A DNA stretch of 64,000 nt. It comes from Polynucleobacter necessarius (GTDB taxonomy: Bacteria; Pseudomonadota; Gammaproteobacteria; Burkholderiales; Burkholderiaceae). The stretch covers positions 2,712-66,711 of the forward strand of contig NZ_LT606946.1 of NCBI RefSeq assembly GCF_900095175.1. Direction: 5' to 3'. Both the position numbers and the translations under genes were made by a program. Each line of letters begins with the position of its first letter. Position 1 is the stretch's first letter. The notes beneath the pieces are model-generated. The model saw only the letters and a program-made list of their open reading frames with translations, did not search any database and was not told where the DNA came from. This document shows positions 677-24,431 of this stretch, in pieces.

Positions 677-1216
677 CTAATCGATAAGTCTTCGATAAAA
701 ATAACTACAGACCTTAATAAGGTATAAGACTAAAAGTGATTCAGAGATATTAGCCGCCAGGGTTCCATACAAAAGAAATAATGAAATTTCGTTATTCTGT
801 AATAGATATGTAAATCTGAAAATCGCCACAAATCCCGCATTTAAAACTACAAGATAAAAGAGCTGAAGTGGGCTAATGTCGAGAAAGGAGTCCGTCTTGC
901 CAAATAAAAACTGCCATAGCTTATAAGCAATTAGGGTTGCGGATGAGGATAGAAGGGCCAGCCAAATAGCTTCATTTGGCTCGAAGCCTCTCATTAAAGA
1001 GCTGGAAATCGCATGGCCAATGAAGATGCCGAAAAATCCTACATAACCAAACAGGATAATTGCTAATAATCTTAGGCCGGCTAACAAGTATATTGAGTAG
1101 AGATATTTATCTGTCTTTAGATAATAAAATATCTCAACGTTGATAAAGTCACAAACGATCCAAATAACGGCAATAAATATAGCCGTGAAAAATTGAATAA
1201 TTTGTTTGTTTGCCAT
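677..1216 (-). CDS. MASE1-like multi-pass membrane protein, paralogue A
   Basis: A 179-residue, very hydrophobic protein with about five or six membrane segments (near residues 8-27, 42-70, 82-106, 118-138, 144-172) and no attached soluble signalling domain. The second segment contains YLLAGLRLLAIILFGYVG, which resembles the first conserved block of MASE1 sensor domains. The same block ([18 protein letters not shown]) occurs in the protein at 23865-24431, and the two align over most of their length. It is divergent from the winged-helix gene at 1366 with 149 nt between starts. The arrangement suggests a membrane sensor controlling, or controlled by, the neighbouring DNA-binding protein. That is inference; no function is established. 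Confidence 0.7.
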   Translation of the reverse strand: MANKQIIQFFTAIFIAVIWIVCDFINVEIFYYLKTDKYLYSIYLLAGLRLLAIILFGYVGFFGIFIGHAISSSLMRGFEPNEAIWLALLSSSATLIAYKLWQFLFGKTDSFLDISPLQLFYLVVLNAGFVAIFRFTYLLQNNEISLFLLYGTLAANISESLLVLYLIKVCSYFYRRLID

Positions 1217-1269
1217 TAGCCCATTCTCTTGTCTTAATTGTATTAAAATAAGTTTTACTTTTGAGAGTG

Positions 1270-1281
1270 TTAACCCTTAAG
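1270..1281. promoter_or_regulatory. 12-bp motif shared with the paralogous locus (candidate operator)
   Basis: TTAACCCTTAAG lies between the divergent genes, 53 nt from the membrane-protein start and 84 nt from the winged-helix start. The identical 12-mer lies, inverted on the window, between the homologous divergent pair at 23794-23805. Its TTAA-CCC-TTAA core is an inverted half-site pair as expected for a dimeric winged-helix protein. Operator function is inferred. Confidence 0.5.
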
Positions 1282-1365
1282 TCTCTTGAAAATATTTCCG
1301 ACGAAAATTTTTTTGGTATAGAGGAGTAGGGGTATAAAAAATTAAAAAAGTAATCGGAGATAGGC

Positions 1366-1725
1366 ATGCAATCTAATTTAATGGTCGAGGCGTACCTGAG
1401 GTTTGTGCGCTTAATGGAAACTCTAGGGGCCGCCCCATCTTTTCCTAGGCTGGATCATATCGAAAAGAAGCTTCTAGAGTTCATTGCTCTTAATGAGGCG
1501 GCTGGTAAAACACTGCTAGTGAGTGATGTGATTTACGCTAATGACATAGGCTCGCCTGCAACATTACGCAGGCGTAGTTCTAACCTAGAAAAACAGGATT
1601 TAATTCGATTCGGTGCTGATATTGACGGTAGAAAAAAATGTATCGAGCTAACCCCAAAATCCCGTGACTACTGGTCAAAGATGGGAAAATGTATAGTCAA
1701 GGCGGCTAGTGGGGTAGCGACCTAA
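1366..1725 (+). CDS. small winged-helix (MarR-like) DNA-binding protein, paralogue A
   Basis: A 119-residue soluble protein with the secondary-structure pattern of a MarR-type winged helix: an amphipathic N-terminal helix (YLRFVRLMETL), then DHIEKKLLEFI, a recognition-helix region SPATLRRRSSNLEKQDLI and a wing with DGRKKCIELT. It aligns end to end with the 116-residue protein at 23395-23745 (shared YxRF, LDxIExxLL, SxATLxxRxxNL, DGRKK). GGAGATAGGC precedes the ATG, supporting the start. Divergent from the membrane protein at 677-1216. Probably an autoregulated repressor or activator of that pair; target and signal unknown. Confidence 0.75.
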   Translation: MQSNLMVEAYLRFVRLMETLGAAPSFPRLDHIEKKLLEFIALNEAAGKTLLVSDVIYANDIGSPATLRRRSSNLEKQDLIRFGADIDGRKKCIELTPKSRDYWSKMGKCIVKAASGVAT

Positions 1726-1744: not shown

Positions 1745-2167
1745 TTATTTGTTTAAGCTGTCGCGGATCTCTCTCAAAAGAACAATATCCTCAGGAGTTG
1801 GGGGTGGAGGAGGTGCATCTATGGTGCGGACTCTATTTACGACTTTCACCATCTGGAAGATCACAAAAGCTAGCAAGATAAAGTTGATAGATATGGTAAT
1901 AAAGTTGCCATAGGCAAATATGGGCACTCCTGCCTTTTTGAGGGCATCAAATGTTCTTGGAACGCCTTCTGGAATTTTCCCTAAGACTAGGAAGAGGTTG
2001 GTGAAGTCAATATGACCCCCCAGCATGGTTGAAGTCACGGGCATGACGATGTCGTTGACCAGGGAATCTACTATCTTCCCAAACGCCCCACCGATAATCA
2101 CACCAACCGCCAAATCGATGACGTTGCCCTTGACCGCAAAGTCCCGAAATTCCTTTAAAACAGTCAT
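1745..2167 (-). CDS. mscL: large-conductance mechanosensitive channel MscL
   Basis: Homopentameric inner-membrane channel that opens under high membrane tension and protects against hypo-osmotic lysis. The 140-residue product begins [23 protein letters not shown], the conserved N-terminal helix and TM1; TM2 is near residues 78-103 and the C-terminal helix is [16 protein letters not shown] after a five-proline stretch. The upstream extension of the open frame is rejected because GAGGG lies just before the ATG at 2165-2167 and family members start there. Single gene, convergent with the winged-helix gene at 1366-1725 (19 nt apart). Confidence 0.95.
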
Positions 2168-2304
2168 AAATCCCTCTCTTTTCAAATTCATTGGGATTAT
2201 CTCAAGATTAACCCCATAACTTTCTTGCATACCCCACTTTTTACTTTAAAATCTTACCTTTAAGCAATTTCCACCTATAAATGCTCTTCCGAGGAATTTT
2301 GTAA

Positions 2305-23394: not shown

Positions 23395-23745
23395 TTAGTT
23401 TTCTTTAACAGCCTTTGCAAGACACTTAGAAATTTCTTCATAGCGTTTGATAGCCATCTTGCTGGGAACCACTTCTTTTTTGCGCCCATCTTCATTCGCT
23501 GCCATCTTGATATAGCCCATAGCGCTCAGATTCTTGAGTCGTCCATGTAGGGTCGCCTGGGATTCCAAATCAGAGAGAGAAATCAGGCCACCAACCAAAA
23601 TCGATTGCTTGGCATGAAAGCTCAAAATAATTTTGTCTAAAAGACTTTCTTCAATAGAGTCGAGTTTTTTCCCAGGATTGATACGGTCAAGAACGTCAAT
23701 TAGATTTAAGAAACGGATGTAGCAGGAGGATTTGGTGGTCGACAT
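23395..23745 (-). CDS. small winged-helix (MarR-like) DNA-binding protein, paralogue B
   Basis: 116 residues, homologous to the protein at 1366-1725: shared YIRFLNLIDVL, LDSIEESLLDKII, recognition-helix region SQATLHGRLKNLSAMGYI and the wing NEDGRKKEVV, then a basic C-terminal helix (KRYEEISKCLAKAVK). As in locus A it is divergent from a MASE1-like membrane protein (23865) with 119 nt between starts and the same 12-bp motif in the gap. The ribosome site is weak (AAAGAA). Function unknown; likely a transcription factor for the pair. Confidence 0.75.
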   Translation of the reverse strand: MSTTKSSCYIRFLNLIDVLDRINPGKKLDSIEESLLDKIILSFHAKQSILVGGLISLSDLESQATLHGRLKNLSAMGYIKMAANEDGRKKEVVPSKMAIKRYEEISKCLAKAVKEN

Positions 23746-23793
23746 TTCTTTTTCAGTTAGTTTAAAAGGTACTAAAACCTAATAAGCTATTGG

Positions 23794-23805
23794 CTTAAGG
23801 GTTAA
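23794..23805. promoter_or_regulatory. second copy of the shared 12-bp motif (candidate operator)
   Basis: CTTAAGGGTTAA here is the exact reverse complement of TTAACCCTTAAG at 1270-1281. Relative to the two genes the orientation is the same in both loci, and the distance to the membrane-protein start is similar (59 and 53 nt). Candidate binding site of the paralogous winged-helix proteins; inference. Confidence 0.5.
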
Positions 23806-23864
23806 TGTGAGTATATTCCCAAATTAATTGGCTGGTAGTATGACTTAATATTTTAAAAATAACC

Positions 23865-24431
23865 ATGCCAGTAGTCATGAAAAGAATACTCTCTGAGCAG
23901 ATGACTGGGTTTTTGGTGAGCGCGATCACCTACTCAAGCCTCTTTTATGTAAATGCTTGGCTTACAGCACACCTTGAATATGGTCTTGGGGTGAATTGGA
24001 TCTACCTTCCAGCTGGCTTACGATTATTTCTGACACTTATCTTTGGCTTATCAGGCGCCATTGGAATTGCGCTCGCATCTTTCATGATTTGTTATTTTGG
24101 GCAATTTCCACCCGATCTCACTACTTGTATTGGGGTGGGGTTGATTTCAGGATTTTCGCCTTACCTCGCAAAACTATTTGTTGCGAGCAATATCAAAATT
24201 TCACCAGATCTCAGTGATTTGAGTTTACCTAAATTGGCTGTTTGTATTTTGATTTATGCGCTCTTAAGTGCTGGCCTGCATCAATGGTGGTTTGCGCTGA
24301 GAGGGCTTGATGGGGCCGGAAGCTTTAATCACTTTGTTGTCATGTTCCTAGGTGATGTACTTGGAACGGTGTTGCTTATTGCTTTAATTAAGTACAGCCT
24401 AGATCTCTTAAAGACCTCAAGAGCAGTCTAA
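23865..24431 (+). CDS. MASE1-like multi-pass membrane protein, paralogue B
   Basis: 188 residues, about five or six membrane helices, no soluble output domain. Carries [30 protein letters not shown], matching the block at residues 40-70 of the protein at 677-1216, and also shares the late segments ([38 protein letters not shown]). An internal ATG at 23877 is an alternative start; neither has a strong ribosome site. The stop overlaps the convergent trpC stop by 3 nt. Sensor role is inferred from similarity to MASE1 domains and from gene context. Confidence 0.7.

Follow-up and report, generated by a model that had tools for sequence, protein, structure and literature searches.

A putative two-gene sensory switch built from an S-component-fold membrane protein and a MarR-like regulator in Polynucleobacter and related bacteria

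The window analysed here, a stretch of 64 kb from the 1.9 Mb single-contig genome of Polynucleobacter necessarius (G000:C1:2712-66711), carries two pairs of genes, A and B, each encoding a small multi-pass membrane protein and a MarR-like winged-helix protein (wHTH). A two-gene sensory switch consisting of a membrane receptor and a MarR-like regulator is the best explanation of these pairs, with a probability of about 0.57. A receptor-regulator pair is most likely: it fits the predicted receptor fold, the absence of an output domain, the conserved partnership and the co-evolution of the partners. The four open reading frames lie where the preliminary description had placed them, with the same sizes, and both pairs are divergent, spaced by 149 nt (A) and 119 nt (B). 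The features are as follows.

677..1216, minus strand: A-mem, ORF for a 179 aa multi-pass membrane protein of a predicted S-component-fold, MASE1-like family, without output domain
1217..1365, no strand: intergenic region of pair A, 149 nt
1270..1281, plus strand: TTAACCCTTAAG, a 12-base word common to the A and B intergenic regions, putative element
1366..1725, plus strand: A-wHTH, ORF for a 119 aa MarR-like winged-helix protein, with a predicted model
23395..23745, minus strand: B-wHTH, ORF for a 116 aa MarR-like winged-helix protein, with family matches in other genomes
23790..23805, minus strand: TTAACCCTTAAGCCAA, degenerate palindrome copy with 2 mismatches to TTAGC-N6-GCTAA, 44 nt upstream of the B-wHTH start
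23810..23815, minus strand: TATACT, -10-like, putative B-wHTH promoter upstream of the palindrome, located by eye from the sequence
23865..24431, plus strand: B-mem, 188 aa membrane protein with six predicted helices

Pair A is directly adjoined by mscL (Pfam MscL; window 1745-2230, minus strand). A third wHTH paralogue is present elsewhere in the same genome, with no adjacent membrane partner (L120:2086-2427; G000:C1:1768991-1769296).

A-wHTH and B-wHTH are clearly homologous by sequence (35% identity over 104 aa, E 4e-18). Neither gave a Pfam match at E≤1 or exceeded the cut-off of a Pfam or NCBIfam MarR model; A-wHTH scored 14.1 bits against the HpaR model, whose cut-off is 121.2. Foldseek matched the predicted A-wHTH model (pLDDT 88) to MarR-family structures (best E 1.7e-4, probability 1.00), and the wHTH profile matched SlyA in the PDB at E 2e-7. 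MarR_2 hit 14 of 25 family members at E≤0.1 (best 9.1e-5). The D.R motif of the wing is invariant (D86 and R88 in 63/63 wHTHs), and the family thus combines the winged-helix fold and the wing motif of MarR proteins. One member is fused to a GAF domain in a 309 aa protein (L113:2102-3031; G002:C1), which points to a role of the wHTH as an output module joinable to other sensors. L111 (G023) has a pair of neighbouring frames that both match the wHTH profile; by eye, the second is similar to the GAF portion of L113.

A-mem and B-mem are very distant homologues by sequence. Only their AGLRL...FG block was significant in BLASTP (23 aa, E 4e-4), and a profile comparison aligned 168 columns (probability 94.7, E 5.6e-8); the homology of the A and B pairs claimed earlier is thereby upheld for both partners. 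The preliminary description spoke of a membrane protein with five to six helices and no output domain, and the predicted B-mem structure has six, arranged as in the fold of S-components, the vitamin-binding subunits of ECF transporters. The membrane family is predicted to have an S-component-type fold. No PDB chain matched the membrane protein by sequence at E≤1. The description 'MASE1-like' stood for B-mem at the profile level: against eight MASE1 proteins (a ninth candidate, L318, was left out as it had no ORF match), B-mem gave a probability of 96.1 and E 2.9e-9, which indicates common ancestry. It did not stand by Pfam, where B-mem scored 19 bits with MASE1 (PF05231; E 8e-4) against a gathering score of 29.8, nor firmly for A-mem, whose profile comparison with MASE1 was weak (probability 49.9, E 1.6e-4) and which had no Pfam match, MASE1 included, at E≤1. 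Across the family, PF05231 matched 6 of 25 members at E≤0.01 (best 4.4e-8), and a precomputed MASE1 domain was annotated in 3 of 120 B-mem relatives among the matches listed. Neither A-mem nor B-mem has the MASE1 architecture of about 300 aa and 8-10 transmembrane helices N-terminal to an output domain. An R or K follows PAG[LI] in 62 of 63 paired membrane proteins versus none of the eight MASE1 proteins compared. In three membrane-first tandem pairs of the genus, L102, L103 and L106 (G034, G011 and G021), [LM]PA[GA][VM]K replaces LPAGLR.

Each of the four ORFs has relatives, and such pairs are also present in further genera and families of the order. A first search set of 61 genomes (the window's own, 36 of the genus and 24 others of the order) gave matches to A-mem in 8 genomes, B-mem in 37, B-wHTH in 39 and A-wHTH in 40. 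Loci from these genomes were rescored with iterated profiles, with a neighbour limit of 1 kb. Among 48 distinct membrane loci, 35 were divergent to a wHTH gene, 4 were in tandem with one and 9 had none within 1 kb. The membrane family thus occurs mostly paired (39/48), rather than mostly apart, while the wHTH family is evenly split: 39 of its 78 loci adjoin a membrane gene and 39 do not. An order-wide set of 399 genomes, counting strong matches only (membrane E≤3.5e-15, wHTH E≤7.6e-13), contained the membrane family in 33 genomes, the wHTH in 36 and both in 31, leaving two membrane-only genomes (G302 and G387) and five with the wHTH only (G037, G121, G270, G323 and G352). Counted by genus (n=158), 13 had both, 1 the membrane protein only, 3 the wHTH only and 141 neither (Fisher p 2e-15). 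The earlier proposal that the pair is a functional unit is supported by these figures. Eight weaker membrane matches fell in open frames of 533-1236 aa; seven of them, together with a match in G717, are MASE1-type fusions by profile. A fused wHTH-membrane protein was considered for the long frames of G249, G352 and G302 and rejected, as no listed ORF matches both profiles.

In a class-wide set of 369 genomes, the membrane family was found in G000, G127, G611 and G462, with a MASE1 match in G717; the wHTH search at 1e-8 gave nothing outside G000 and G127. G462, a genome of 0.9 Mb from a different order, has an operon-like array (L244:2038-5417; G462:C7) of a weakly matching wHTH (E 1.5e-4 among few ORFs), two abutting receptor copies, an ABC ATPase and an ABC permease-like protein. 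A genome search at E 0.01 did not recover the G462 wHTH.

Two further claims of the preliminary description were not supported as worded. The divergent geometry is not conserved: 65 pairs comprise 44 divergent, 15 wHTH-first and 5 membrane-first arrangements (20 tandem in all) and 1 convergent. The frames of wHTH-first pairs overlap as scored in 13 of 15, by exactly 4 nt in three; because each ORF start is the one that gives the longest frame, the lengths of small gaps and overlaps are approximate. The neighbourhoods, one example of each checked by Pfam, are unrelated: porin/MscL, YchF/TrpC, NadA, HU, sulfate permease and seryl-tRNA synthetase. Since pairs occur in varied orders and neighbourhoods, it is the partnership that is conserved and not the geometry. 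Nor is a joint duplication inside this genome supported: the divergence between A and B is deep, and both have relatives in other genomes that occupy corresponding sites. In G012 and G018, the A site (porin - wHTH - MscL) includes a wHTH of 54-55% identity and an mscL-type neighbour as here, but no membrane gene. At the B site (ychF - wHTH - trpC), 24 of 26 loci with a wHTH also have the membrane gene, and G016 and G023 have the wHTH alone; contig-end fragments of this site in G020 and G022, in which no wHTH or membrane ORF was kept, were left out of the counts. In G005, G006, G009, G027, G029 and G032, a membrane gene and a wHTH gene each stand alone at separate places; G032 additionally carries an adjacent pair. 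Distance profiles singled out no partner for distant pairing in the genomes with lone genes.

The partners also show co-evolution. In a mirror-tree analysis of 63 of the 65 pairs (two with short partners were left out), the distance matrices of membrane proteins and their wHTH partners correlated with r 0.88, and the best of 2000 random pairings reached 0.29. Shared genome descent could lie behind part of this correlation. When partners were swapped within a genome, in the 12 genomes with at least two pairs, r fell every time. The largest drop occurred in the window's own genome (-0.086), and the effect was very small in G212, G413 and G142 (in G142 only two of three pairs were exchanged). These results are the strongest evidence that membrane protein and wHTH are passed on, and adapt, together.

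The intergenic regions were compared as well. At both A and B the word TTAACCCTTAAG points the same way with respect to the wHTH gene, and the 64 kb window has no further exact copy; a shared word of at least 12 bases arose in 15 of 1000 simulations. At the B site, TTAGC-N6-GCTAA occupies the same place as TTAACCCTTAAG, just 3' of the -10-like element by eye. Chance alone would give many copies with 2 mismatches in the window (34.5 expected, 44 observed). Across the 26 B-site loci, a palindrome with at most one mismatch precedes the wHTH start by 18-43 nt at 15 (8 exact, 7 one-mismatch), five more, the window's own included, have a copy with 2 mismatches at a distance of 16-55 nt upstream, a degree of similarity that shuffled sequence sometimes reaches too, and six have none near the wHTH (L017, L021, L024, L025, L028 and L029). 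Pairs at other sites are mostly without it, apart from 2-mismatch copies at 26-51 nt in L101, L108 and L002, and no copy with at most one mismatch was seen at the scanned loci outside the genus. The half-site equals that of the SlyA box as given in a passage of PMC5797941.

We had first read the palindrome as a wHTH autorepression site. Against this, exact copies also precede other genes, including a FixJ-type response regulator (Response_reg plus GerE in two tested) and a metallo-beta-lactamase-fold protein (two tested), where they immediately precede -35-like elements, as expected of an activator site. In genomes of the genus (L274-L306), the metallo-beta-lactamase-fold protein has a signal-peptide-like start, and a copy also precedes a 104 aa protein with no Pfam match. 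TTAGC-N6-GCTAA apparently marks a genus-wide regulon. Many single sites are nonetheless chance, because 25 genomes gave 158 matches on one strand versus 115 for the reversed control. Of the palindrome sites examined, 17 of 42 fall within ORFs; the 40 stretches were picked from the listed matches with pyrimidine-rich centres favoured, so the share of promoter sites is biased. Because copies stand before other genes and are mostly absent at other pairs, the binder may well be the FixJ-type response regulator, and we lean towards the palindrome being the site of another regulator, perhaps this one, that acts on the B pair. The wHTH itself is still a candidate binder, given three lone wHTH genes with an upstream copy of at most one mismatch (L076 and L080 at 184 nt, L125 at 13 nt).

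How might such a pair work? The membrane protein would be a stand-alone receptor with a six-helix S-component fold, whose profile matches the first half of MASE1. It would bind a small ligand or read the state of the membrane, and its cytoplasmic face would decide whether the MarR-like partner is free to bind DNA. In the simplest form of control, the wHTH would be held at the membrane or its dimer changed. We infer physical contact between the partners, a ligand, a sign of control and target genes of the pair; a sensor that acts through a separate DNA-binding protein would be the best-supported mechanism.

The main rival is that the membrane protein is no sensor at all. It could be a solitary S-component-type uptake protein, with the wHTH a local MarR-type repressor that senses the imported compound in the cytoplasm and regulates the membrane gene accordingly. 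The predicted fold is compatible with this, the conserved residues N30, R53, H139, W142, M160 and D164 could line a ligand site, and a divergent layout with a transporter is common for MarR regulators. Two results argue against ECF transport: EcfT/CbiQ (PF02361) was not detected in the window's own genome at E≤0.01, in a search whose control responds in 10 of 14, and the AXXXA motif of helix 1 is present in just 19 of 63 membrane proteins (a looser small-xxx-small pattern in 47). Solitary transport may still take place. The wHTH also occurs at the same sites without the membrane gene, no metabolic neighbour recurs by eye among the ORF tables listed, and the same wHTH family is retained despite deep divergence, over which local regulators are often exchanged. 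We regard uptake as the less likely of the two readings. Still less probable is a reading in which the membrane protein serves, like MASE1, as a platform where other signalling proteins dock, with the wHTH doing no more than regulating the expression of the membrane gene. The relation of the membrane protein to MASE1 and the docking of the partner protein RdcA by the MASE1 domain of DgcE, as described in part of PMC6510439, would allow this; the partner-specific co-evolution, paralogues included, is stronger than expected for a mere expression regulator. A selfish or toxin-antitoxin-like pair, in which the wHTH represses a harmful membrane protein, would suit the scattered placement of a two-gene unit across several families of one order, but is very improbable in view of the stable B pair between ychF and trpC and the two genomes with the membrane protein and no wHTH.

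We thus return to the receptor-regulator switch. Open-access literature searches found no study of a MASE1-like membrane protein paired with a MarR-like winged-helix protein, no title naming such a pair among the MASE1 papers listed, and nothing relevant on MarR in Polynucleobacter among the matches listed; within that scope we call the pair undescribed. It is about an even bet that the pairs form an undescribed two-gene signalling class of one order, in which a free-standing S-component-fold receptor lacking a kinase or cyclase directly contacts a separate MarR-like regulator and paralogous pairs are kept specific by co-evolution. If so, the S-component fold would have a further use, the control of a soluble regulator, beside transport and kinase input, and the poorly understood MASE1 relatives would gain a minimal stand-alone form. 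The class would also parallel LytTR regulatory systems with unrelated parts. Partner specificity could be tested by swapping between the paralogous pairs of a single genome.

Each half of the pair has known relatives. The wHTHs share the winged-helix fold and D.R wing motif of the MarR regulators SlyA, MepR and BpsR; unlike these, they are regularly paired with a membrane protein, and they are shorter (116-119 aa, against mostly about 140-165 aa in the MarR matches from the PDB), with a short C-terminal helix. To MASE1 (PF05231; E. coli DgcE), the membrane protein is linked by remote homology over the first half and a common PAG...G...G block, but MASE1 has about 300 aa, ten helices and a fused output, whereas the membrane protein has about 188 aa, six helices and no output (MASE1 as described in part of PMC6510439). 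With the S-components of ECF transporters and 5TMR-LYT sensor kinases it would have the six-helix fold in common, a fold used by both transporters and receptors according to passages of PMC11109136; in contrast to those systems, its own genome has no EcfT match and it carries no kinase or other soluble domain. The closest parallel in design is the LytTR regulatory systems (HdrRM and BrsRM), which, in the portions of PMC6193735 that describe them, are widespread, likewise comprise a soluble DNA-binding regulator and a transmembrane protein encoded by two genes, and so establish that such a combination can form a sensory system. There the regulator has a LytTR domain, the membrane protein is a shown inhibitor and positive autoregulation acts through direct repeats (PMC6193735, same portions). 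Here, by contrast, the regulator has a MarR-like fold and no LytTR DNA-binding domain, and the membrane protein, predicted to be of the S-component type, may act with either sign.
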